Source: a virus
Reading direction: 5' to 3' (one strand)
IMG/VR virus record: IMGVR_UViG_3300044644_000225
Location: 1 to 26,893 of that record
DNA length: 26,893 nt
Below, in pieces: positions 1,253 to 26,893 of this stretch. A model generated the notes under the pieces. That model was not told where the DNA came from, made no database searches, and was given only the letters and a program-made list of their open reading frames with translations. The translations under genes and the position numbers were made by a program. The stretch's first letter is position 1. Every line of letters starts with the position of its first letter.

Positions 1253-2344
1253 TTAAGCGTGGAGAATAGGCAAGATACCTAAGTTCAATGCGCTCATCTT
1301 ACGTGCCCATGAACCAGCAGTGGCATAACCAGCGTTGCTAGCGAAGGCATTAGTAGCGCCAGCCCAGTCGTAACCCATTGGGTGTACAACGAAGCCATAG
1401 CGATACCAGATAGCGGTAGAACCACCACCAGTGTAAGAAGCAGCTGAACGATCAACTTCAACAGGTGTAGGAACAGCAATGTTTGTAAAGCTGATAGCAC
1501 CTGGCTTGCAGATGAATGTGGTCTTTACAGAACGGTCATTCACGTTAGCAGAGGCAGACAAGTCACCTTGAGCAACACGGCTCAAGATCAAACGGAATTT
1601 ACCACCGAACACGGTTTGGAATGTCAAGTTACCATCGGTAACAGTTGTGACATCAACCAAGTTAGCAGCACGCAACTCAGCCAACACTTCAGGTGAAGTG
1701 ATCATGTACATGAAGTCTGGCTCATAATCCTTAAAGCCCATACCTAGAGCTTGGAATAAACGCTGACCACGAGCAGCACCAATAGCTGTAGCGTCAAACA
1801 ACTTACGCTGATCAGATGCAGAAGTAGCAGCAGCACCAAAGGTACCGGCAGCGTTAATATCTACGAAGCTACCAACACCAGCGCCATCAGCGTCTGTGTC
1901 ATAACCAACGATACCAGCACCACGAGAAACTTCGTATGCAGCTACACCTTTAAGTGTGGCGATAACAGCATCAGACTCGTCTTGGCTACGAACTTCAGAG
2001 AAGTCACGAGCAATCTTAGAAAGACCGTCTTGTTGTGAAACAACTTGTTGTAAATTGACTTGTTCAGAACCAAAGGTACGAACTGTCTTAATGTAGTCAG
2101 CAATTTCGGTAGACACATCAGTGTAAGTACCTGCATTGGCGACAGAGAGGCTAGCAACGTTAATGTTAGCTGCTAGGGGCTTGTACCAGCGCATTTGACC
2201 AATAAAGCTCTCGCCTGTTGGGTCAATACGGGCATCAGTACCAACGATGCCAGTGCTGTTAAGCTTCTTGGCATTTGTGTACATTTCGTCAGCGTATGCA
2301 GAAATAGCAATAGCTACGTTTTGGAACATTGTATGATTAATCAT
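1253..2344 (-). CDS. Major capsid protein (HK97-type fold expected)
   Basis: 363 residues from the ATG at 2344, preceded by AGGAG at good spacing. The protein is Ala/Gly-rich with no signal peptide. It has an N-terminal helical region, a middle domain containing FMYMITSPEVLAELRAANLV and GGKFRLILSR, and a C-terminal VHPMGYDWAG segment. The segment describing a test peptide region followed by 'FKDYEPDFMYMITSP' is a pattern common in phage major capsid proteins of the HK97 class. It follows the scaffold gene directly. Local base composition is more GC-rich than its neighbours, which suits a highly expressed gene. The fold is inferred from family and context. Confidence 0.88.
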   Translation of the reverse strand: MINHTMFQNVAIAISAYADEMYTNAKKLNSTGIVGTDARIDPTGESFIGQMRWYKPLAANINVASLSVANAGTYTDVSTEIADYIKTVRTFGSEQVNLQQVVSQQDGLSKIARDFSEVRSQDESDAVIATLKGVAAYEVSRGAGIVGYDTDADGAGVGSFVDINAAGTFGAAATSASDQRKLFDATAIGAARGQRLFQALGMGFKDYEPDFMYMITSPEVLAELRAANLVDVTTVTDGNLTFQTVFGGKFRLILSRVAQGDLSASANVNDRSVKTTFICKPGAISFTNIAVPTPVEVDRSAASYTGGGSTAIWYRYGFVVHPMGYDWAGATNAFASNAGYATAGSWARKMSALNLGILPILHA

Positions 2345-2364: not shown

Positions 2365-3060
2365 TTAAAAGGTGAAGCTACCAAGCTTTCCACCTGCGGC
2401 AAGTGCTAACACTTCCTCGGTGGTCATTTCAGTAATCTTCTTGTTGGGATCGAGTTTGGGAGTACCGTTCATATTGTTACTACCACCCCCTGAATTAGAT
2501 TTAGGTTTAAATAGGAAGGAATTATCTTCATTCTTCACATATTGTCCTACAAAATCTTTGATTGATACACCTGATTTATGAATCCATGCACCAGTCTCTG
2601 GATCTTGGATGAGTTGATCGATAATATCACGATAAGCCATTTGGCTAGATCGGTCATTACGGAAATCAAGGTTAGTTAATGCATTGCGAACTGCACCATC
2701 TCTAGTGAGTTCAGTTACTTTGCTTTCGGCCAACGCAAGCTTCTCAGTGAGTTCTGCGAGCTTCATCTCAGCAACTTCTTTATGCTTACCTTCGTCCTCC
2801 AAAGCTTTCATCTTACGTTGTTTAGCTTCATCTTCTAAACGAACACGCTCTTTAACAGCATTGTCACGTTCTTGATATGCTTTATCTAAACTAACTTTAA
2901 TTTTAGAAAGACGTTCTTCAACCAAACGGTTAATCATGTCTTCCGTATCTTTGTTATTAGTACCGCCTCCACCAGTATCAACCTGATCGGCTTGAAACTC
3001 TGGGTTAGGTGTGGTACCATCATCGAGGAACTCTTTGTTTCCGAACTTATCTACTTTCAT
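2365..3060 (-). CDS. Capsid scaffolding protein
   Basis: 231 residues, start ATG at 3060 with AAGGAA seven bases upstream. A flexible Gly/Asn/Asp-rich N-terminus (residues 1-40) leads into a long charged coiled coil (about 45-125, rich in Glu, Lys, Leu). A compact segment follows, then a second Gly/Asn-rich linker (SNSGGGSNNMNG), and a short C-terminal helix (EMTTEEVLALAAGGKLG). Coiled coil plus a C-terminal capsid-binding helix directly before the major capsid gene is the standard design of scaffolds. I see no protease motif, so maturation cleavage would need another enzyme. The ClpP-like protease encoded near 26.5 kb is a candidate only by association. Confidence 0.83.
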   Translation of the reverse strand: MKVDKFGNKEFLDDGTTPNPEFQADQVDTGGGGTNNKDTEDMINRLVEERLSKIKVSLDKAYQERDNAVKERVRLEDEAKQRKMKALEDEGKHKEVAEMKLAELTEKLALAESKVTELTRDGAVRNALTNLDFRNDRSSQMAYRDIIDQLIQDPETGAWIHKSGVSIKDFVGQYVKNEDNSFLFKPKSNSGGGSNNMNGTPKLDPNKKITEMTTEEVLALAAGGKLGSFTF

Positions 3061-3126: not shown

Positions 3127-6100
3127 TTACGGTCCAATACCATACCAATCCTTACCTTTAGGTATCGGAGCTAGTATATCTTTTCTCGTAATTTTATTTG
3201 GAGGATCTATTAAGCCGTCCTGTATTGCCTTTTGCCTAAGCTCACGATATGTCTTGTCAGACAGACCTTCTCTTTTAAGTGCTTTAAGCGTTTCTTCAAT
3301 TGTGTTTCCATCAAGGGCATCAGCATAGATTTCTCTAAGTGCTCCCTTGGATTTTGCTGCTAATCCGATATTAGTAAAGAAAGCATCATGAATAGTTGCT
3401 GTCTCAACATTGTTCTTACGACCCCACAAATGAAACTGTCTAACAATAGAGGCATCATTCATATGGTTGCCATTAACACCCATACCAATACCTGCTCTCA
3501 TTAGACTTGCCTTACCTAACAGTGTAGCGTCTTCCGCTTTATCTTCGTAAATATTCCTAACCATTCTATTAGCCTCTTTGTCATAGAACTCAATGCTAGT
3601 TTGAACTTTAGGTCTATACCTCTGGTATAAAGTCTTACCATCGAATGTTACCCAAGGTATGTCAACCTTCTGAGTTTCATCTACGTAAGCCTTTGCAGCT
3701 TCTTTCCAGAATTGTACGAATTTTTGAGTGACTGGCGCTCTCTCTGCTAGTTTCCTAGACATGATTTCTGATACCGCTTTGAAGTCCTGGGGGCCAACTA
3801 GACCGCCACGAGCATTCATAAGCTTATCAACAAACGCCTCTACATCTGGGTGAGAGTCACGAGCATGTTGTAAGAGTTCATTCCCCACAGGAGATTCACC
3901 TTCAACAACTTCGTTAAGCTCACGCTTAAGTTGTTTCAATCCAAACACAGTATTATCTGCACCGAGATATTCTGCATCTTTAATTGATTTATCTATAATA
4001 TTGGTTACTCCACGAAGTTCTTCACGGGTAACTACTGTATAACCTTTTTCCTCTAACACAGAAGCAAACTTGGCTTCAATATTGGCTGCTTGTGTTGCTT
4101 TGCCAGCACCATAAAAGCTAACCATGTTTTGTGCTTTAGCTGCTTTCTGTAGGTCTGTCCATTGAATATTAGCATCTCTTAATGCTGTTATTTTTTGGAA
4201 TTCAGGATCAGAAATAGTATCCATTGCTACTAAGTCGTACAACCTATTCTTTTGATCGGTAGGTAATACGTTTGAGTTAATAGCAATACTTCTATCTTTT
4301 GTACTTAAGCCAATGATTTGTGCTCCAGAGGAAGAAGCATCGTTTTCAATCATTAGTTTTGTTTTATAACTAGTTAGTTTATTTACATTTGTAAAATCGC
4401 CATTCACATGTTTATGAATTCTAGCATATTCAATTGCTAGCCTAGATATCTTTGCAATTTCCTCTGCATCCATTGAACGAATAAGAGGATGCTCTAAATA
4501 CTCTCGTATTCTACGATCACGTTGAGTTGTTTCCATCATAAGCCTACCAAGACTTAGAATATCTTTTTCGTTTCTTAAAAAGATTTCCATTCTACCTGCT
4601 TGAGTTAATGCCTCAGTAGCTGGACCAATCATAGCACCAGTCTGAATCATAAGTTCTTGAAAGGCTTCTACACTTAAGTTTTCAGCCTTAGAGGTATTAA
4701 TAAATGGACGTACAACTTCACCGCCTGTAGGTGTTAAATACCCTTGATAATACACACGACCCCGGCCATCAATATTAGCAATAACGCTAAATGGTTTTCC
4801 ATTATCTCGATGGTACTTAACAGTCTGCATAAAGCTATAACCTTGATCTCCACGAGTAAGAATAAGTTTTCTAAAATCATTTAAGTCATCATACTTTTTT
4901 ACATTCCCACGGGGATCTCTAAAGCGTACAACATCATCCATGAAAGCAGAAAACTCGTTATCTACTTCGTATTTAACTGACATAGTATGATTAAGCATAT
5001 CGGCAAAATCACGGTCAATTAACAGCTTATCGTAGTTGGCATTAGCTCTACGTGTAATAATAGGAATACCTGTATTATTGCCACGAGCATCAAAATAATT
5101 CTTTTGACCTGGCCTTACATACAGCCTATCTCTATCTTCAACAATACCTATACGTTGGCTAATAAGATTAGAACGATTGGCTCTTTGAAGATTTAACATA
5201 TTGTTATCTAAGATCTGCACCTCACGACTAATAGTATCTTTCCAAGGTCCACTAGCCCTACCCGTCTCAAGGTCTACTACTGAACGCCTAGTCTTGCCTC
5301 GTTTTACCACACGTATGTAGCCTTTATCTCTCAAGGCAGTAAGTATTTGAGAACCATCAGCATGATAGTCTTTTAGTGTTGGCTTAAAGAAAGGAAATTC
5401 ATGCTTCTCAGTAAGCTTGTATTCTTGCCTAAGCATTCTTCCAATATTAATTGCAAGCGAATCATAATCAGTAGACTTACCATCTGCAACAAGTCCGATT
5501 GCTTTGGTAATTACGCTAATAGCTTCTTTACCGCCAACCTTTTCTTCAATTAATTCATCAATATAGTTCTTCTTATTTCTTTGAAATAGAAATTCTAAGT
5601 CTACAATTTTCCTGTATTCTTCACGAGTGCCTCTAAGAAACTTTTGAATCATACTTTCAGTAGGCTCTACTTTATTCCGATCTAGCCATAAAGCACCACC
5701 AGGAATATCTTCTCTAATAATCTTTTCAATTCGTTTCTTAAATGAAACTCTATCACGACCTATTGGACCCTTAAACCATGTGTATAAAGGTGTTCTACCA
5801 GTATAAAGTAATCCACGGGCAATACTACGACCATATCTAGTTTCCCAAGATCGAATATATCTATCGTTATCTAATGCACTATCTTGAACGTCTTTAAAAG
5901 AGTAATACTTTCCAAAGATCTGAACTTTAGCTGGCTCACCCGCAACACCATAACTATCAAACTGCATTGATCGTGCTCTTGATCTACGGTCTAAAATACG
6001 ACTAGTATTAACAACAGAGTACTGCATTTCTCCACGAACAACGTTCATGAAGTTAACCCATGGTTGCTTGTCGTTATTATATCGTTCAAAGACAACACGT

Positions 6101-7560
6101 AAGTTTTCAGCAATAGCAGTTTGTTGGTTTATACTTACAGACTCTTCCATAGATGCTACAAAGTTTTGTATCCACTCTTTTTGATCTTGGTTTAATGATT
6201 TAGAGTTCTTAATAAAGTCAAGTCGTTCTTGTAAAACATTAAAGTCAGGGTCATAAAGTAATGTAGAACTTTGTTCTCCAGTAAAGGGATCAAAGCTTGT
6301 GTTTCTTTCATCAAACTCGTTATTAGCTCGAATTCGAACAGATCGTTTACCCTGAAGTGTTGTACCTCTAAAGTCTGTTAAGCTTAAACTTTGTGCTGCA
6401 TTTTCAGCGTCTGCAATATACATTACCTTTAGCTTATTAGTAAGCTCTGGGCTTCTAGTTAGATCATATGGTCTAGAGGCCTGAACAAATAGTAACTCAG
6501 CCTCCTTAGCATCAACAATAGCTTGCCTTGTTGGATAAAGGAATGTCCTTGCATTATCTAATCTTCTTAGTGCTGCAATACTTAATTGTTGACCCTTAGA
6601 TGTAGTGAATGACTTAACATCCAAAATACCCTTTTGTAATAGCCCAGCCTTTTCTTCAGAACCCAAATGGCTAACTTGAACCTGCATGGGTTGTCTTTTT
6701 AACCAAGTACTGTAAGTCTCTACAGGAGGTAAACTACCATCTAATAACTTATCTGGTGTTTCTTTTAATTTATTTGGTTTTAGTCTAGTATCTTTATTAT
6801 CTAAACCTGCTAGCAGTTGTGTTTTATTCTTCAGAATAGGAATCATAGAACTACGGCAATTCCAATGTAATGGAGGCCTAAATCGCATATCATTTAATTT
6901 GTATACCTCACCATCATGGTGTGCACAAATAGGAGATGTACGATTATCTAACACAGCAGTAAATCGATAGCCAACTAGTAGCTCTTCATTACGACTCATA
7001 ACTAGACTCATTGCTGTTGATTGCGTATTTGTAATAGCAGTACGTACCAAAGCCTTTGCTTGTACTTCAGTAACAGATGTGGTTCTGATTACATCATCGA
7101 TAATTGCCTTTGGTGACTTACCATCAGCTAGTCCAGACTTAATCTTACCATCAATTCTAGCTAGTTCAATTGTACCTATGCTATCGAAGTGATCCTTCAA
7201 GCTTTTAGAGGCAGTTATATTAGGTCCAATTAATTTAGGAATAGCGTCACTTCCTTTAGGTTTCTGAACCTTAAAGAAGCTTCCAGCAGATCTTTCTAAA
7301 TTGTTAGCGTGAAAGCTTGTAGATGCATCTGCATAGTCAGCAACAGAGTTACTAACAATCATATGAAGTTCCTTAGTAGATCTAACTACTTCGGTCCTAA
7401 CATCAGCCTTAATATTTTTAGATAATAAAGACTTAAGTCTCTTTTGATGTCTACGGATGCCCCTACTTACATTAGTAGAGGTTTCCGCCTCGTATAACCT
7501 TGTATCAGCTAAGTGCTGTACAATCCTATCATATATTTGCGTATTAATAGCAGTTGGCAT
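3127..7560 (-). CDS. MuF minor head protein fused to a single-subunit (T7/N4-type) RNA polymerase
   Basis: About 1477 residues. I prefer the ATG at 7560 because AAGGGA lies at correct spacing before it; an in-frame ATG at 7578 exists. Numbering is from 7560. Residues ~120-335 are a MuF domain: RTAITNTQS at ~173, then YRFTAVLDNRTSPIC, with C212, H215/D216 and a PPLHWNCR segment (H232, C235). Residues ~335-500 are unassigned. From ~500 the polymerase motifs come in order: DGRGR (D931-R935), motif A D1074 in NDASSSGAQ, motif B K1142xxxM1146xxxY1150-G, and motif C HD (H1391, D1392) in TIHDAFF. Spacings (139, 68, 250) lie near the N4 mini-vRNAP (about 135, 111, 281) and T7 (112, 94, 181). The gene sits between portal and scaffold, the usual MuF position. 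The family suggests template-dependent RNA synthesis; location inside the capsid is inferred. The Arg of motif B (T7 R627) appears to be Gln1138. Confidence 0.9.
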   Translation of the reverse strand: MPTAINTQIYDRIVQHLADTRLYEAETSTNVSRGIRRHQKRLKSLLSKNIKADVRTEVVRSTKELHMIVSNSVADYADASTSFHANNLERSAGSFFKVQKPKGSDAIPKLIGPNITASKSLKDHFDSIGTIELARIDGKIKSGLADGKSPKAIIDDVIRTTSVTEVQAKALVRTAITNTQSTAMSLVMSRNEELLVGYRFTAVLDNRTSPICAHHDGEVYKLNDMRFRPPLHWNCRSSMIPILKNKTQLLAGLDNKDTRLKPNKLKETPDKLLDGSLPPVETYSTWLKRQPMQVQVSHLGSEEKAGLLQKGILDVKSFTTSKGQQLSIAALRRLDNARTFLYPTRQAIVDAKEAELLFVQASRPYDLTRSPELTNKLKVMYIADAENAAQSLSLTDFRGTTLQGKRSVRIRANNEFDERNTSFDPFTGEQSSTLLYDPDFNVLQERLDFIKNSKSLNQDQKEWIQNFVASMEESVSINQQTAIAENLRVVFERYNNDKQPWVNFMNVVRGEMQYSVVNTSRILDRRSRARSMQFDSYGVAGEPAKVQIFGKYYSFKDVQDSALDNDRYIRSWETRYGRSIARGLLYTGRTPLYTWFKGPIGRDRVSFKKRIEKIIREDIPGGALWLDRNKVEPTESMIQKFLRGTREEYRKIVDLEFLFQRNKKNYIDELIEEKVGGKEAISVITKAIGLVADGKSTDYDSLAINIGRMLRQEYKLTEKHEFPFFKPTLKDYHADGSQILTALRDKGYIRVVKRGKTRRSVVDLETGRASGPWKDTISREVQILDNNMLNLQRANRSNLISQRIGIVEDRDRLYVRPGQKNYFDARGNNTGIPIITRRANANYDKLLIDRDFADMLNHTMSVKYEVDNEFSAFMDDVVRFRDPRGNVKKYDDLNDFRKLILTRGDQGYSFMQTVKYHRDNGKPFSVIANIDGRGRVYYQGYLTPTGGEVVRPFINTSKAENLSVEAFQELMIQTGAMIGPATEALTQAGRMEIFLRNEKDILSLGRLMMETTQRDRRIREYLEHPLIRSMDAEEIAKISRLAIEYARIHKHVNGDFTNVNKLTSYKTKLMIENDASSSGAQIIGLSTKDRSIAINSNVLPTDQKNRLYDLVAMDTISDPEFQKITALRDANIQWTDLQKAAKAQNMVSFYGAGKATQAANIEAKFASVLEEKGYTVVTREELRGVTNIIDKSIKDAEYLGADNTVFGLKQLKRELNEVVEGESPVGNELLQHARDSHPDVEAFVDKLMNARGGLVGPQDFKAVSEIMSRKLAERAPVTQKFVQFWKEAAKAYVDETQKVDIPWVTFDGKTLYQRYRPKVQTSIEFYDKEANRMVRNIYEDKAEDATLLGKASLMRAGIGMGVNGNHMNDASIVRQFHLWGRKNNVETATIHDAFFTNIGLAAKSKGALREIYADALDGNTIEETLKALKREGLSDKTYRELRQKAIQDGLIDPPNKITRKDILAPIPKGKDWYGIGP

Positions 7561-7582
7561 ATTTTCCCTTGATACCATATAA

Positions 7583-7605: not shown

Positions 7606-9237
7606 TTATACAGTGTTGTCGTTATCGTCGTCATTGCCCCTTGTATTAGGGCGCATGTTGTCTGTTTCAGAAATACTAGAGTCAATCTTAGTAGCCATAT
7701 TATCTACTAAAGGGTCACTCTGAATCTCCGCTACACCGTCCTCATCATTGTACTCAGCTGGGAGCACATCATTGAACTTAGCAATAGAAATAAATGTAGA
7801 ACGTGGAATAATACCTTGCTGGTACCACTCTGTAACTAATCTCATCCAGTCTGCGCCTACAGGAGTAGGATTAAAGTCAGCACTCAAGGTGAACTTAATA
7901 TCTGTTGAAAGAACATCAATATTGTATTTCCACTTAAGCATTACTGTAATGATCTGTCTCATTGTCTCTGAGATACGGGTATTAAGCATACCTAATTGAG
8001 CAGTCTGAGCAGCATTACGGATTTCTAGACTTACGCCTGACTCACCTGAAGAACCCTCTGGCGAAAGCATACGGATGCCCATACGAGCCATTTCTTCAAT
8101 GGTAGCTGCAATGGCTTTTTCCATATCCGCTAAAGCGCCTGTTGGAGTGTCCAATGCTCTAATGTCGTCTCCAGCACGGAGTTTAATCCATGAGCCAAGA
8201 CCTGCCTCTACAATAGTTTCAAACTCTTCATCAGTCATATCTGACATGACTACTGGAGTGTATGTAGCTGCACCATAGAGCAAGTGATTACGTCGGCTAA
8301 TCTTATTATACAAAGCAATCTCACGATCAATCAATGATTGTAGGATTGGTTCAACAGGGTCGATCTGACCATTCAATGGATAGGCAGGAATGAAGTTCAT
8401 TCTCTCACCGTTCATCAAAGGTACTTCTGTACGTGTCTTTACCCATGCTGCATTAGCATTGTCTACTTGATACTTAGATGTAACGTTACCATTAATAACG
8501 CTTACAGACTCATTAGTGTCTCGTGTGTAAGTATCTACGACAAGCAGTCCTGACTCATCTAAATAATAGTGAGTAACAGTGTCTACATAGTCTGGGTGGA
8601 ATTCATTTTTAGAATAGTCTTCCATGTAGTAACGGAAAAGTAAACTTGTTAATACTTGTTTGTTAGTATTACGGTCCTGACCTCTACGCCAGTTAATAAT
8701 GTTCTCTGCTTGAATGAGCATTACATATGGGGACAAAGCCTTGGCCTCTTCCATAGTGAGAGCGTCTGGATTAGCTACTGTAGGGTAGTCTACTAGACAC
8801 CAAGCTCTAGATGACTGTAGCTCTTCCCAAATAGCCGCATCCAAAAAGCCATGTAGTGAAGTACCATCAGCACCAAAAGAAGTACGAATCCAGTCCTCAG
8901 TTCCTTCAGGAAATACATTCTCTGGAAGCTCAATAGCTGCTTGTTTACGTAATAAGCCGCCTACAAGAACCTTAGCATACTGTGCTGTTAGTCCAGGAAG
9001 CTCACCCTCAGCACGATAAAAGTTGTACTGTTGTGAACTCATTGTAGGAGAAAAGGGTAATAGTAAGTTATTGTACGTTATAGTATCAATCGAGTCATCA
9101 TATGCTCTTGCATGAGTCTGTCCATTAAGAACAGCTCTAGCCCTCTCCCAGAGAGGCCGCATAGACTCATATGCTGCGTTAGGATCCCCAAGGCTTTTTG
9201 TTTTAGCCTTTGATGGGGTCGTTGTTAGGTTTGCCAT
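7606..9237 (-). CDS. Portal protein (DUF4055-type)
   Basis: 543 residues from the ATG at 9237, with GGAGGAG upstream. The N-terminal region (YESMRPLWERARAVLNG, then LPFSPTMSSQQYNFY and LTAQYAKVLVGGLLRK) matches the DUF4055 portal family. The central KISRRNHLLYGAATYTPVV and the later GESGVSLEIRNAAQTAQL segments match the portal stem and crown-proximal parts. The protein forms the dodecameric ring at one capsid vertex through which DNA passes. The C-terminus is acidic and disordered (Asp/Asn-rich). It precedes the MuF fusion by about 45 bases, the classic portal-MuF neighbour pair. Length is normal for the family. Confidence 0.88.
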   Translation of the reverse strand: MANLTTTPSKAKTKSLGDPNAAYESMRPLWERARAVLNGQTHARAYDDSIDTITYNNLLLPFSPTMSSQQYNFYRAEGELPGLTAQYAKVLVGGLLRKQAAIELPENVFPEGTEDWIRTSFGADGTSLHGFLDAAIWEELQSSRAWCLVDYPTVANPDALTMEEAKALSPYVMLIQAENIINWRRGQDRNTNKQVLTSLLFRYYMEDYSKNEFHPDYVDTVTHYYLDESGLLVVDTYTRDTNESVSVINGNVTSKYQVDNANAAWVKTRTEVPLMNGERMNFIPAYPLNGQIDPVEPILQSLIDREIALYNKISRRNHLLYGAATYTPVVMSDMTDEEFETIVEAGLGSWIKLRAGDDIRALDTPTGALADMEKAIAATIEEMARMGIRMLSPEGSSGESGVSLEIRNAAQTAQLGMLNTRISETMRQIITVMLKWKYNIDVLSTDIKFTLSADFNPTPVGADWMRLVTEWYQQGIIPRSTFISIAKFNDVLPAEYNDEDGVAEIQSDPLVDNMATKIDSSISETDNMRPNTRGNDDDNDNTV

Positions 9238-13271: not shown

Positions 13272-13343
13272 AGAGCGGTAGTGGGACTCGAACTCACATT
13301 CCAGAGATAACGTCTGATTCTACCTATTGAACTATACCACTCT
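13272..13343 (-). tRNA. tRNA-like element with canonical D and T arms but abnormal anticodon arm
   Basis: Reading the minus strand, AGAGTGGTA at 13343-13335 pairs with TACCGCTCT at 13280-13272 (nine pairs, one G-T). T8, A9, a D arm GTTC/GAAT with A14, G18-G19 and A21, and a T loop TTCGAGT closed by GTGAG/CCCAC (one mismatch) are all present. The anticodon arm is odd: the best stem TCAGA/TCTGG encloses CGTTATC, lacks T33, borrows a base of the D stem and leaves a 3-base variable loop, so about four bases are missing relative to a normal tRNA. GTT (Asn) is also visible in the loop but out of register. No CCA is encoded. It may be a decayed Asn-type tRNA or a tRNA-mimicking structure. Confidence 0.6.
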
Positions 13344-13700: not shown

Positions 13701-15026
13701 TTAGAACATAAAACCTTTAGTAACTGTCTTAGTACCTGAACGAACAGGGAATAAGTATTCAACAGCATAACGAAGAGCATCTGTCCAATGTTCCACATTC
13801 TCTGCTTTAGATATCTGTGCTGTATTAGGATTGTTCTCAACCCATACGGTTCTTTCAAGAGATCTGATAGTGTGCTCTGCTCTAGGATGAATATACATAT
13901 CGATATCACCATGAGCATTCTTAAACTTACGATTAACAGCAGCTACTGAGTCAACAATAGGAGGAGCGGCCTTATGTGCTCTACATATAATCCCATGACT
14001 CTCCAAGATAGAGAAATCGGTAGCTCCAGCAACAGCACTAGTCTTCCTAGCTCTTCCCGCAGGGTCTGGATAAGCAAATACCCTATGACCTTTATCCTTG
14101 AATTGCCCCTTAAGCTTCTTAGCTAATTGTTCTGTATCGAGAACATTCTGCATGTCCTCTAAGATATGAATCTGTCCAGCTCTAACAGCAAAGACTACAG
14201 CAGCCATAATGCCAATGTTAAAGTCAATAGCCACATGGACATCTTCTTTGTTTGTTGTCTCTACGTTAAAGTATGGTAGATCAGCAGTAACATGAGTCTT
14301 ACGATCAAACATGTAAAATACTTTAGCACCAGAGTCCTCAAAGGAACACTCATACTCTCGAGCAAACTTCATAGGGTCAATCAGGCGCTTAGTCCTCTCG
14401 ATCTCTTCCACAGATAAATATGGAGAGTCCTTATAGGTATATCTAAAGGTCTTCCAACGGTTGTCCATAGACTCAAAGTTAGTCATATCGTAGAAATAAT
14501 TCATACCCTTAGGTGTACCGATAATAAGAGCCTTATGGTTACCTGCCCAACGTGTAGTCATAGCAGGTTGAATAATAGATTCCCAAGATTCTTTAAGTCC
14601 TGGCTGACCAGTCCAGTCAGAGACCTCGTCTCCAACAACAAAGTACTGACCTGATCCCCGCATCCTTTCAGATGCTTCATAAGACCATAGCTTAAGCTTT
14701 ACATTGTTCTGAAACCAGAATGTTCCAGCTGTCTGAGATGACTTCTCAGCATAATCCTCTAAGCCTAGGTTGTAGGCTAATAGAGGCCAATAAATATCTA
14801 ACGACTGTTGGTATGTTGGACAGATAATCGAGACGTTCTTATTAGGAACATCTTCAGGCATCTCTAGCAACTCATGAACAGCCATTGTAGCAGCAACACT
14901 AGCAAGGTAACTCTTACCAAAGCCTCGTGAGGCTACTGTAGCAGCATATCTAGTGCCACCCTTCTCTGAGAACAAATACTTTAATACTTCAGACTGACCT
15001 CTGTGTAATTTAATTTCATTTGACAT
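13701..15026 (-). CDS. terL: Terminase large subunit
   Basis: 441 residues. ATPase half: Walker A SRGFGKS at 33-39, Walker B YFVVGDE at 128-134, and a coupling-type IIGTPKG near 168-174. Nuclease half: VAIDFN with D268, AYPDPAGR with D321, and HWTDALRY with D416, consistent with the three acidic residues of RNase H-like terminase nucleases. It drives DNA into the procapsid through the portal and cuts the concatemer. Length is usual. It follows a 68-residue gene and the candidate small subunit. Confidence 0.94.
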   Translation of the reverse strand: MSNEIKLHRGQSEVLKYLFSEKGGTRYAATVASRGFGKSYLASVAATMAVHELLEMPEDVPNKNVSIICPTYQQSLDIYWPLLAYNLGLEDYAEKSSQTAGTFWFQNNVKLKLWSYEASERMRGSGQYFVVGDEVSDWTGQPGLKESWESIIQPAMTTRWAGNHKALIIGTPKGMNYFYDMTNFESMDNRWKTFRYTYKDSPYLSVEEIERTKRLIDPMKFAREYECSFEDSGAKVFYMFDRKTHVTADLPYFNVETTNKEDVHVAIDFNIGIMAAVVFAVRAGQIHILEDMQNVLDTEQLAKKLKGQFKDKGHRVFAYPDPAGRARKTSAVAGATDFSILESHGIICRAHKAAPPIVDSVAAVNRKFKNAHGDIDMYIHPRAEHTIRSLERTVWVENNPNTAQISKAENVEHWTDALRYAVEYLFPVRSGTKTVTKGFMF

Positions 15027-16413: not shown

Positions 16414-16433
16414 TCTCTTTAGCGTCACCTGGT
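16414..16433 (-). promoter_or_regulatory. SP6-like phage promoter, copy driving the late block
   Basis: Minus-strand ACCAGGTGACGCTAAAGAGA. It shares 19 of 20 bases with the copy at 17055-17074. Compared with the SP6 consensus core AGGTGACACTATAGAAGAG, the part AGGTGACGCTAAAGA aligns closely (AGGTGAC identical, then CTA and AG). By that alignment transcription would begin near the G at 16417. It lies just after the terminator at 16541-16463 and before the late genes. No coding sequence overlaps it, so its conservation is not explained by protein. Confidence 0.72.
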
Positions 16434-17054: not shown

Positions 17055-17074
17055 TCTCTTTAGCGTCCCCTGGT
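17055..17074 (-). promoter_or_regulatory. SP6-like phage promoter, copy driving the SleB-type gene
   Basis: Minus-strand ACCAGGGGACGCTAAAGAGA, one base different from the copy at 16414-16433. By alignment with SP6 the start would be near 17058, giving a 19-base leader containing the AGAAGG ribosome site of the hydrolase gene. It sits in the short gap between the hydrolase and the upstream operon (last stop at 17080). The placement precisely between genes, twice, is what makes a promoter role likely. Confidence 0.72.
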
Positions 17075-20329: not shown

Positions 20330-20550
20330 TTTATTTCCTCATAGTGTGTTCCATTATAGGATTCAATAAATTTCCATTTACGCTCACATGAACTACAACT
20401 TAAATTCCCAGTTGTAATATTCAAATCAGCTTGTAAGTTATTACCTTTACGGTCATATGCAGGTAAAGTATATGCAGCAGTTCTAGCAGTGTTAGTAATG
20501 TAGAATCTACAGTCACTTCTCAAACAACTTAATAATTCAAAATTTGTCAT
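20326..20550 (-). CDS. Small Cys-containing protein, 74 aa
   Basis: Contains CLRSDC near the N-terminus and CSSC near residue 52-55, a spacing that could form a zinc-binding ribbon, followed by ERKWKFIESYNG. ATG at 20550 overlaps the deaminase stop (20547). Function unknown. Confidence 0.7.
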   Translation of the reverse strand: MTNFELLSCLRSDCRFYITNTARTAAYTLPAYDRKGNNLQADLNITTGNLSCSSCERKWKFIESYNGTHYEEIK

Positions 20551-20849
20551 GTGTGTTCTATTATTTCAATTCCAGCTTCTTTTATAGCTGATAGGCAGAT
20601 TGGACAAGGTTTAGCATTTAATGGGTCACCCTGTCTACCATACCTAGCTACAAAGATTCTGTGTGCTTTACTAAGATCTTTGCATTTAAGAATAGCATGT
20701 ACTTCAGCATGAAGATAAATTTTATATGGTTCACCAACCTCTTCGGCATGACGTGCCATTAGAGGGTGGCTCTTCACATAATTGTTATATCCAACTGAGA
20801 GTACACGGCCCTTCTTATCATACACGATGGCAGTCAGGGCGTGTCTCAT
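20547..20849 (-). CDS. Deoxycytidylate (dCMP) deaminase-like protein
   Basis: 100 residues. Zinc-site residues of the cytidine/deoxycytidylate deaminase fold are present: H47-A-E49 (E49 the proton shuttle) and P81-C-P-x-C85. The family converts dCMP to dUMP, feeding thymidylate synthesis in the infected cell, or deaminates related bases. At 100 residues it is shorter than typical dCMP deaminases (about 140-190), lacking the usual N-terminal extension, so substrate is uncertain and tRNA/guanine deaminase-like uses cannot be excluded. Confidence 0.8.
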   Translation of the reverse strand: MRHALTAIVYDKKGRVLSVGYNNYVKSHPLMARHAEEVGEPYKIYLHAEVHAILKCKDLSKAHRIFVARYGRQGDPLNAKPCPICLSAIKEAGIEIIEHT

Positions 20850-22519: not shown

Positions 22520-23659
22520 TTACTCCTTATACAAAATGTCGAACAAGTATTCAATAACTTGATGCTCTTCATAGCCTACACGTAGCATGTCTTCTGCATC
22601 AAGAATAACCTCTTCTGTCAATGCGTTTCTATTAAGAAACTTAATTGCAGTTTCAGGATGTTCAGGATGAATAAATGTAGCTACCATCTCTAATAATTCT
22701 GTCTTCAAACCAAACTTAGCGTCTGCTAAACAGTCAATTAATGTTGTAGCTTCCTCAGTATAAGTTATTGGACCTACTGGATCTTTCTCATAGTCATACT
22801 CGTAGTCAGCGTAGTTACTATAGCCATATGCATCTTTGTTATAAGTAGGGAAAGCTGTGTAGTTACTGTAATTAGTCTTAAGCTCATCTGGATCAGGCAC
22901 ACTTGGATCACGAACAGCTTCGAGAGAATCCCAGTTAATTTTCAATACAGCCTCGGATAAGTCTTGCAAGTGATAGAGATCAAGCTTTTCATTTGGTGTA
23001 TGCTCAGAGTAATAACCAGCACTAATGTTAGTACATTCAGGAATAATATCAGCAAACTCAGCAGTATCAGTGTAAACGCCTGTATCATCTGGTACAAACA
23101 TAAAGTCTGTACAAGCATCATTCAAAGCGTCTGACAATGCATAAGCAAAATCATCTGAACAAGTACGACCACACATTTGATGAGTAATAATACTATGAGT
23201 ACCTTTACGATCGAATGTAATAGCTCGTTTGAATTGTCCAACTAGTCCTGGATCATTTAATGCAAGCCAACTAGAACCGATGCCACCTTTCTCTTCACCT
23301 TGAAAGAACACATAGTAGCCAGGAACTCTATTGTCAATCATGTGAAGTAGTAAAGCAACGCCAGCACCATCGTCAGCACCGAGAGGTTTACCTCCGTCAG
23401 CTAGCAGATATTGACCTTCATACTTAAACACATTATCACCATCTTCACGGTGGACAGTATCTACGTGAGCAGTAAATAATGTCTCATTAGATGAGTCATC
23501 ACGCATGTCCACATGAATATTGCCGCAGAAGTCTACTGATAGGTCTCCCTCACCAACACGTTCTACGATATAGTTACAGAGCATAGTAACACCTGTACCA
23601 CCATGTGGTCTCTTCAGGGACAATGCGAATTCCAAGTCTTTAATTAATTGAGTTTTCAT
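22520..23659 (-). CDS. Zn-dependent peptidase of the M20/M28/M42 superfamily
   Basis: 379 residues. Metal-site motifs appear in order: TAHVDTVH (H65, D67), LGADDGAG (D96/D97 bridging), QGEEKGGIGS (E122 base, E123 ligand), FDRKGT (D150) and SEHTPNE (H220). These are the ligands of co-catalytic dizinc exopeptidases such as peptidase T and aminopeptidases. After ~240 the sequence becomes acidic and Tyr/Asn-rich (SNYTAFPTYNKDAYGYSNY), then ends in a helical domain. Substrate unknown; peptide salvage, host protein turnover or inactivation of a peptide signal are possible. It overlaps the preceding Cys-cluster gene by four bases. Confidence 0.85.
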   Translation of the reverse strand: MKTQLIKDLEFALSLKRPHGGTGVTMLCNYIVERVGEGDLSVDFCGNIHVDMRDDSSNETLFTAHVDTVHREDGDNVFKYEGQYLLADGGKPLGADDGAGVALLLHMIDNRVPGYYVFFQGEEKGGIGSSWLALNDPGLVGQFKRAITFDRKGTHSIITHQMCGRTCSDDFAYALSDALNDACTDFMFVPDDTGVYTDTAEFADIIPECTNISAGYYSEHTPNEKLDLYHLQDLSEAVLKINWDSLEAVRDPSVPDPDELKTNYSNYTAFPTYNKDAYGYSNYADYEYDYEKDPVGPITYTEEATTLIDCLADAKFGLKTELLEMVATFIHPEHPETAIKFLNRNALTEEVILDAEDMLRVGYEEHQVIEYLFDILYKE

Positions 23660-26285: not shown

Positions 26286-26893
26286 TTACGGATTCTTAAT
26301 TACTTCATCTACAATACCATGTGTAACTGCCTCATCTGGGGAAAAGAAACAATCTGATTGTTGTAGCAAATGTTTACGGATATATGTAACAGACTTACCT
26401 GTGCATTTGCGATAATGATTTAACATTCTTAGCGAGTCTAGCTGAAAGTCCTTTGAGGCTGCAGCTATCTCATGTTCTTTGCCCACAACTCCACGAGAGA
26501 ATTGATGTGACATAACAGAACAATTTTCGGTAATAAACCGATTACCTTTATTTCCTGACATCAACAACATGACACCTGCTGAGGCTACTTCACCAGTACC
26601 AATAGTAATTATTGGAATATTGGATTGTTTAATAGTATCAATTAAATGGTATGCTGAAGAAACAAATCCACCTGGACTGTTAATAAACAATACAAGTTTA
26701 TCTGGTTGATCTTGCTTAGCCATTAGATTGTATTCCATAATAGCCATAATAATAGGCTGTACAGATTCATCTTCTACTTCTCCCATAAGATACATTACGC
26801 CATTACGCATAATATTCTTACCAAACCAGTAGTACCCATTATCACCATCTTCCTGAGTTACAGGTTGAGGTGGATTAGGGGAGTCTGGTGCTT
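26286..26893 (-). CDS. ClpP-like serine protease, 5' end cut by window edge
   Basis: The frame is open to the right edge; an internal ATG at 26810 gives 174 residues, but the upstream codons (NGYYWFGKNI before it) read smoothly and the real start probably lies outside the window. From that ATG: FINSPGG at 43-49 (oxyanion region), EVASAGV with Ser77, MSHQF with His102, and SDCFFSPDEA with Asp153, a full ClpP/SDH-fold catalytic triad. Host ClpP is a tetradecamer fed by AAA+ unfoldases; phage versions may process capsid proteins or divert host proteolysis. No AAA+ partner is visible here. Confidence 0.88.
   Translation of the reverse strand, partial: APDSPNPPQPVTQEDGDNGYYWFGKNIMRNGVMYLMGEVEDESVQPIIMAIMEYNLMAKQDQPDKLVLFINSPGGFVSSAYHLIDTIKQSNIPIITIGTGEVASAGVMLLMSGNKGNRFITENCSVMSHQFSRGVVGKEHEIAAASKDFQLDSLRMLNHYRKCTGKSVTYIRKHLLQQSDCFFSPDEAVTHGIVDEVIKNP

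Follow-up and report, generated by a model that had tools for sequence, protein, structure and literature searches.

Organization of the locus

The window, which is the whole stretch of viral DNA analysed (26,893 nucleotides), carries a head operon with the gene order portal, MuF-RNA polymerase (RNAP) fusion, scaffold and major capsid protein (MCP). The fusion adjoins the portal gene on one side and the scaffold and MCP genes on the other, in keeping with the first-pass annotation, which had noted that MuF genes are known to neighbour the portal. In three genomes that were checked, Pfam detects no MuF protein other than the fusion. A candidate suppressor tRNA at 13272-13342 was discarded, since it instead resembles a shortened tRNA-Leu.

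1253..2344, minus strand: major head protein (PHROG_247, E 4e-27)
2365..3060, minus strand: head scaffolding protein (PHROG_206, E 2e-11)
3127..7578, minus strand: MuF-RNAP fusion gene, 1483 codons from the ATG at 7578
7606..9237, minus strand: portal protein (PHROG_145, E 2e-58)
13701..15026, minus strand: terminase large subunit (PF03237)

The product of the ORF, ~1,480 amino acids long, consists of a MuF minor-head domain fused to a single-subunit RNAP of T7 type, which is present at full length. The ORF reported by the first-pass annotation exists and its start at 7560 fits most relatives, but the gene lies on the minus strand, where its longest form runs from 7578 to 3127. The ATG at 7560 (1477 codons), which is Met7 of the longest ORF, is the likely start of the gene, because most relatives open with MPTPINT or MAIND. 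Residue numbers below refer to the longest ORF (1483 codons) and exceed those of the first-pass annotation by six.

6844..7155, minus strand: MuF domain, residues 142-245 (Pfam PF04233; Cys218, His238 and Cys241 invariant)
5905..6546, minus strand: middle region, residues 345-558, after the MuF-like part and before the fold that resembles T7 RNAP (from models)
3130..5904, minus strand: single-subunit RNAP fold, residues 559-1483 (PF00940 and structural match)
4756..4770, minus strand: DGRGR motif, residues 937-941 (conserved in homologues)
4339..4341, minus strand: catalytic Asp1080 of polymerase motif A (conserved in 49/49)
4108..4137, minus strand: polymerase motif B, Lys1148, Met1152, Tyr1156-Gly1157 (conserved in 49/49; site of group I introns or gene interruptions at codon 1153 in relatives)
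3385..3390, minus strand: polymerase motif C, His1397-Asp1398 (conserved in 49/49)

Both halves of the fusion match known families

The Phage_Mu_F family (PF04233) matches residues 142-245 with an E value of 3.4e-12 and 47.5 bits (curated cut-off 29.6), and RNA_pol (PF00940) matches residues 1064-1437 with an E value of 8e-8 and 31.9 bits (curated cut-off 22). Against PHROGs, the protein matches both head morphogenesis (PHROG_241, E 7e-51) and RNA polymerase (PHROG_414, E 2e-25). An AlphaFold model of the RNAP half (residues 330-1483; pLDDT 79) superimposes on T7 RNAP with a Foldseek E value of 8e-20 and a VIA Z score of 32.3 (516 residues, rmsd 3.5), in an alignment that spans residues 559-1482 at Z values of up to 32; by VIA, mitochondrial RNAPs follow at Z ~28 and the N4 mini-vRNAP at 18.0. 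Residues 345-558 are mostly helical in the models and lie outside the T7 RNAP match, which begins at model residue 230. For the MuF half, Foldseek gave no significant match in the PDB but did so in BFVD, where model m55d289a74f82 resembles minor capsid proteins of phages. With support far beyond chance, Pfam, PHROGs and the AlphaFold model thus uphold the earlier reading of a MuF domain joined to a complete-looking T7/N4-type polymerase, and the structure prediction that had been proposed as a check yields a T7-type polymerase fold in the C-terminal half and a minor capsid protein match in the MuF half.

Across 49 non-redundant homologues, fifteen residues are invariant: Cys218, His238, Cys241, Asp937, Arg939, Arg941, Asp1080, Lys1148, Met1152, Tyr1156, Gly1157, His1372, Asp1375, His1397 and Asp1398. 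Gly940 of the DGRGR motif is kept in 47 of the 49. With the shift of six, the residues named in the first-pass annotation are correctly placed (C218, D222, H238 and C241; DGRGR at 937-941; D1080; K1148-M1152-Y1156-G1157; H1397-D1398), except that its Asp216, now Asp222, does not define the MuF domain: the position is variable, with Asn in 36 homologues and Asp in 13.

The possibility that the RNAP domain is a structural or DNA-binding cargo, non-catalytic in infection, could be raised from the distance of the sequence to T7 RNAP (phmmer E 2e-4). We regard it as very improbable given the full fold, the catalytic residues kept in 49/49 and the introns found at an active-site codon. These interrupt the fusion genes of some relatives at codon 1153, within polymerase motif B. 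Inteins at this residue were ruled out: the interrupted copies contain stops, and Rfam identifies group I introns. Group I introns in polymerase active-site codons fit the expectation for a conserved essential gene.

Distribution of the fusion

A survey for homologous fusions, suggested in the first-pass annotation, recovered the fusion in at least 549 viral stretches, each confirmed by tblastn; the phages concerned are tailed and form a widespread group. The cultured roseophages DSS3_VP1 and DSS3_PM1 also encode it (48% identity over 99%), although their annotation says no more than 'minor head protein-like' or 'head morphogenesis'. The 49 non-redundant full-length homologues and the independent cultured genomes rule out a chance fusion or an assembly artefact. 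One scan of genome contigs confirmed no host prophage with the fusion.

A second RNAP and two promoter-like motifs

Besides the fusion, a separate free T7-like RNAP is encoded in all 11 IMG/VR relatives of at least 36 kb and in DSS3_VP1, so that a structural fusion and a non-virion-type RNAP gene occur together in these genomes, as in the arrangement of P23-45. DSS3_PM1 shares the free RNAP with DSS3_VP1. In the partial record of EBPR siphovirus 1, neither the free RNAP nor the AT-rich motif B described below was found. Both are likewise absent from the 26.9-kb fragment that forms the window; we infer that its phage has them from relatives that are ~80% identical.

The GC-rich promoter-like motif A occurs in 39 copies, compared with 0.2 in shuffled sequences, typically directly after the free RNAP gene and ahead of the middle and late operons. 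Two copies are present in the window, the first upstream of the lysis, packaging and head genes, and DSS3_VP1 has both motif A and motif B. We propose that motif A is a promoter for the free T7-like RNAP.

17057..17074, minus strand: motif A, ACCAGGGGACGCTAAAGA (0 mismatches; 0.00 expected)
16416..16433, minus strand: second motif A copy, ACCAGGTGACGCTAAAGA (1 mismatch; 0.00 expected)

The AT-rich motif B, AAAAAGTGAGAAAA-N5-GCATCTATAATGA, spans ~38 nt, occurs in one to three copies per genome and stands where the early operon begins, ahead of the free RNAP gene to which this operon leads. Its ~50-bit PWM found one or two copies per genome, and none on the opposite strand, in the five genomes scanned. 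With the RNAP rather than the motif as bait, 55 loci were fetched, and 44 of them have motif B 5' of the gene for the free RNAP. In 35 the motif shows 0-9 mismatches, against at least 12 in the controls (reverse strand and shuffled). The fusion is present in 14/14 motif-B contigs of at least 46 kb. Conversely, motif B was not found in Kolga, a complete related genome that has the free RNAP and a MuF protein whose C-terminus is peptidase-like in place of the RNAP. Two other candidate controls, G038 and G042, considered as relatives without fusion or motif B, were dropped: each contig is interrupted at the MuF locus, and contigs related to them have both the fusion and variants of motif B.

The interior of motif B also varies with the fusion clade. 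An N4-style hairpin lies inside the motif B variant of the ~42%-identity fusion clade only, and tracks that clade (37-49% identity) in 6/6 contigs where the fusion was found; motif B of the main lineage forms no hairpin.

A model for transcription

We consider it probable that the fusion is a virion-carried RNAP, anchored by MuF, that, in the manner of the N4 and P23-45 virion enzymes, transcribes the early operon and thereby leads to the free RNAP and, through it, to the middle and late operons. The MuF domain would be built into the portal vertex of the head, a location suggested by the domain and the gene order, and the C-terminal two thirds, a complete T7-superfamily RNAP, would be carried in the capsid and enter the host with the DNA. 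The injected, catalytically active enzyme would then transcribe the early operon from the one to three AT-rich elements, giving rise to the free RNAP, which would read the GC-rich promoters ahead of the middle and late operons; one of these would make new MuF-RNAP for the next virions. The pairing of motif B with MuF-RNAP and of motif A with the free RNAP is presumptive, and the motif locations fit transcription of the free RNAP gene by the fusion. The idea of early transcription by the fusion, already put forward in the first-pass annotation, gains support from the free second RNAP, from two promoter-like motifs placed as a virion-to-non-virion RNAP cascade would require and from the absence of motif B in Kolga.

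Motif B could instead be read by the host RNAP, using a sigma70-like -10 element and a phage activator to make the free RNAP as in T7, while a virion-borne MuF-RNAP does another job such as transcription-driven genome entry or replication priming. The motif contains TATAAT, a perfect sigma70 -10 hexamer, in 30/30 cases, and its two-box layout of ~38 nt is longer than a T7-type promoter, so that the host enzyme could read it; most phages, moreover, begin with host RNAP (PMC4496689). Yet the motif has neither a TTGACA-like -35 at 16-18 nt nor an extended -10 TGn, its interior varies with the fusion clade, and Kolga, with a free RNAP and no fused one, lacks it; an AT-rich motif is likewise used by the virion RNAP of P23-45 (PMC10770324). 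We therefore hold a host-read motif B to be unlikely. Still less credible is a post-translational separation of MuF and RNAP, with the polymerase serving the producing cell at a late stage, for instance in late or packaging-coupled transcription, instead of being delivered. The gene does lie in a late operon, and a ClpP-type protease of head-maturation families at 26286-26810 makes processing possible, but late transcription would already be provided for by the free RNAP, which has promoter-like late sites of its own, and fusing a cytoplasmic enzyme to the sole detected MuF would be an odd route.

Delivery of MuF-RNAP, if true, provides a vRNAP-to-nvRNAP cascade that is testable with named promoter sequences in the cultured DSS3_VP1 and DSS3_PM1, and offers two candidate pairs of T7-type polymerase and promoter. 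The fusion indicates that the cargo of MuF can be a whole polymerase, and Kolga affords a natural comparison for how head proteins acquire injected cargo.

Comparison with known systems

N4-like, crAss-like, phiKZ-like and P23-45 phages are known to have virion RNAPs; to these the fusion would add the MuF head protein as a carrier, present in at least 549 viral sequences. DSS3_VP1 and DSS3_PM1 (Naomviridae) have the same fusion and free RNAP as the relatives of the window. Both have dU-DNA (PMC12697855), and a link to the fusion was rejected: the dTMP-phosphatase family is found in DSS3_VP1 and not in the other relatives tested, so that the fusion is independent as far as tested.

In MuF-effector fusions, too, the head protein is the carrier of an enzymatic cargo at its C-terminus, which is believed to enter the host (Iyer et al., 2017; PMC5512222). 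The part of that survey available to us lists PBECR, RelA/SpoT and other effectors, places virion RNAPs solely in N4-like contexts and contains no MuF-RNAP fusion (PMC5512222).

Like the N4 virion RNAP gp50, the fused enzyme belongs to the T7 superfamily of single-subunit RNAPs and is encoded with late genes, and a second phage RNAP is available for later genes, with few early promoters in N4 (PMC4496689) and few candidate ones here, which have a hairpin in one clade and none in the main lineage. The N4 vRNAP differs in its size (~3,500 amino acids, against 1,483) and in having other encapsidation domains and no MuF, whereas the fusion has MuF at its N-terminus; the structural likeness to N4 mini-vRNAP (Z 18) is also weaker than that to T7 RNAP (Z 32). 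In N4, RNAPII is a heterodimer and late genes use the host RNAP (PMC4496689). In crAss-like phages, the virion RNAP similarly resides inside a large fused protein, but it is a two-barrel enzyme of unrelated fold with carriers of unknown function (PMC10770324).

The idea of early transcription by such a fusion has a precedent in the Thermus phage P23-45, in which a different virion RNAP, gp96, is fused to the tail tape measure and transcribes the pre-early genes, including that of the non-virion RNAP gp64 (PMC10770324). There, too, an AT-rich motif serves the virion RNAP and a GC-rich motif the second RNAP, and relatives without the fusion also lack the AT-rich motif (PMC10770324). In both systems an RNAP is attached to a structural protein of the virion, and the phage encodes another RNAP besides. 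They differ in that the P23-45 enzyme is a two-barrel (DPBB), cellular-RNAP-related polymerase on a tape measure, whereas the enzyme on MuF is T7-type, both by Pfam RNA_pol and by its whole-chain match to T7 RNAP, and does not have the DPBB fold; moreover, the function of the P23-45 enzyme was tested experimentally and that of MuF-RNAP is deduced here. We lean, with some reserve, towards a two-tier cascade independent of host RNAP in a common, unrecognised phage group, in which a capsid-anchored T7-type RNAP would read an AT-rich early promoter (of hairpin form in one clade) to give a second T7-type RNAP, convergent with P23-45 but drawing on a different superfamily of polymerases and a different protein of the virion.

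The MuF–RNA polymerase fusion gene and its predicted fold

All sizeable genes of the 26,893-base virus record, which is the full window, are carried on the minus strand, and the gene order is terminase, lysis genes, PhoH, portal, fusion, scaffold, major head protein, head-tail adaptor and tail terminator. The gene that joins a MuF domain to a single-subunit RNA polymerase (RNAP) is

7578..3127, minus strand, MuF-RNAP fusion ORF, 1483 codons

The first-pass annotation had placed the start at 7560, and this position holds up as the equivalent of Met7, the start used by most relatives. Using hmmscan, Phage_Mu_F was located at residues 142-245 and RNA_pol at residues 1064-1437, both scoring above the Pfam cut-offs, and PHROG head-morphogenesis and RNA-polymerase families match the corresponding halves.

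For the AlphaFold2 models, computed from alignments of the family's own members, the pLDDT is 79 (residues 330-1483) and 79.5 (residues 7-519). The predicted RNAP half matches T7 RNAP (Foldseek E 8e-20, VIA Z 32.3), with alignments to model positions 230-1153 (fusion residues 559-1482) covering nearly the whole T7 chain, and N4 mini-vRNAP with a Z of 18.0; residues 345-558 fall outside the polymerase match. The BFVD matches of the MuF-half model are phage minor capsid and head-morphogenesis models, and a PDB search with this model gave no significant match.

Several other genes in the window are of note:

26286-26810, minus strand, ClpP-type protease with matches among the head-maturation protease families of phages; the major head protein lies ∼24 kb away
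22520-23659, minus strand, M28/M20-like peptidase with a match to a phage peptidase PHROG, within the block of non-structural genes
20547-20849, minus strand, small protein judged by eye to be cytidine/deoxycytidylate deaminase-like
13272-13342, minus strand, tRNA called by ARAGORN, anticodon TTA

The head proteins, the fusion included, might be substrates of the ClpP-type protease. The tRNA would read UAA, and two relatives share the call; because alignment with a tRNA-Leu(TAA) at a like place in relative G002 shows four bases of the anticodon arm to be missing, it is probably a decaying tRNA-Leu, and a suppressor tRNA is not proven.

Distribution, conservation and interruption of the fusion

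Scanning viral contigs twice yielded 57 loci, with relatives numbering at least 549; the fusion was confirmed in none of the 84,980 bacterial and archaeal genomes scanned. The cultured roseophages DSS3_VP1 and DSS3_PM1 have homologues with 48% identity over 99%. Across 49 non-redundant homologues the catalytic and MuF C/H/C residues are invariant except for D222 and, in two sequences, G940, and the two halves show a similar degree of conservation, with mean column identities of 65% for RNAP and 63% for MuF. One relative (L313) has an in-frame insert of ∼130 amino acids following residue 255, between MuF and RNAP.

In three metagenomic phages (L312, L058 and L383) and in EBPR siphovirus 1 (L060), the coding sequence is broken at codons 1149-1154, within polymerase motif B; a genome search yielded a fourth metagenomic copy (G064) broken at the same site. 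Rfam places group I introns at the break in L312 and L058, and an HNH/NUMOD1 homing-endonuclease gene occupies it in EBPR siphovirus 1. The active-site codons near V1153 are thus a homing hot spot. Since mobile introns favour essential, conserved codons, the position of the break provides indirect evidence that the polymerase of the fusion is needed.

A second polymerase and two promoter-like motifs

DSS3_VP1 and 11 relatives, 36-80 kb in size, were searched with Pfam RNA_pol; in addition to the fusion, each carries a separate T7-like RNAP of ∼720-770 amino acids (E near 1e-82). Both polymerases are also present in the more distant genomes G054 and G059; the partial record of EBPR siphovirus 1 shows the interrupted fusion only. 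In each of the three genomes tested (G001, G044 and DSS3_VP1), the fusion is the sole Pfam MuF match. The window is too short to include the free RNAP gene, which its phage would be expected to carry, judging from relatives ∼80% identical in the fusion.

The GC-rich motif A, ACCAGGGGACGCTAAAGA (AATAGGGTGCGTTAAAGA in DSS3_VP1), emerged when intergenic DNA was searched without supervision, and has 39 copies in six sequences vs 0.2 in shuffles. Most copies lie on the coding strand, immediately following the free RNAP gene or ahead of the middle, lysis, packaging and tail operons; one lies within the free RNAP gene in both G001 and G003, and some lie within annotated genes of DSS3_VP1. By position, these copies would be middle and late promoters of the free RNAP. 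The window has two:

17057-17074, motif A
16416-16433, motif A

The AT-rich motif B, AAAAAGTGAGAAAA-N5-GCATCTATAATGA, recurs where the late genes end and the early operon toward the free RNAP begins. To avoid circularity, loci were fetched with the free RNAP as bait, and motif B was found upstream of it in 44 of 55 with at most 9/35 mismatches; reverse-strand and shuffled controls always had at least 12. The remaining 11 loci comprise three with a weaker copy that reads TCTATAATG or CTATAATG, two in which the upstream sequence extends for <2.7 kb, and six from lineages whose related contigs carry variants farther upstream. A position weight matrix from 30 distinct copies (∼50 bits) gave one or two matches in each of five genomes and none on the opposite strand. 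Scanning all viral contigs yielded 63 stretches; the fusion is present in all 14 motif-B contigs of at least 46 kb, and those without it do not count against the association because they are shorter. In DSS3_VP1, a partial box (GCATCTATAATGA without the upstream box) lies ahead of hyp104 (L139:27787-27806).

Which polymerase reads motif B

Because motif B precedes the free RNAP gene, the first RNAP to read it could only come from the host or from the virion. The host enzyme could fill this role, and the perfect TATAAT within motif B and its 38-nt span speak against the fusion, but a −35-like hexamer at 16-18 nt and an extended −10 are both absent. The fusion is favoured by the complete relative Kolga EXVC016S (portal 48%, free RNAP 28%), whose MuF protein carries a terminal peptidase-like domain in place of RNAP and whose genome has no motif B at up to 3 mismatches, although Kolga is a distant control, which weakens this point. 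It is also favoured by the contigs of the 37-49%-identity fusion clade, in which the motif interior becomes GGGG..CCCC between unchanged flanks and folds as a hairpin (at best 6 bp with a 3-nt loop). A third point in its favour is that the same logic has been shown experimentally in P23-45, where an AT-rich promoter serves the fused virion RNAP and a GC-rich one the second RNAP, and relatives without the fusion lack the AT-rich motif (PMC10770324). On balance, the evidence tilts slightly towards motif B being the promoter of the fusion.

The Kolga MuF protein, gp59 (L377:19998-21899), has a metallopeptidase-like C-terminus where the MuF-RNAP family has RNAP, an instance of modular MuF cargo.

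Proposed cascade and comparison with known systems

Beyond the presence of the fusion gene in the head operon, we infer each step of the following cascade. Late in infection, the free RNAP would transcribe the head operon from motif A, and MuF-RNAP would become part of the head, at its portal vertex. It would then exit with the DNA and start the early operon at motif B, which would yield free RNAP.

Iyer et al. (2017; PMC5512222) describe MuF-effector fusions and place virion RNAPs only in N4-like contexts. A MuF-RNAP fusion was not found in the literature searched, which included few subscription papers, and priority is not proven. The fusion is widespread, and the candidate promoters are directly testable. 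The fusion may work as do N4 gp50 and P23-45 gp96, but it lies outside both groups, lacking the giant architecture of the former and the two-barrel fold of the latter.
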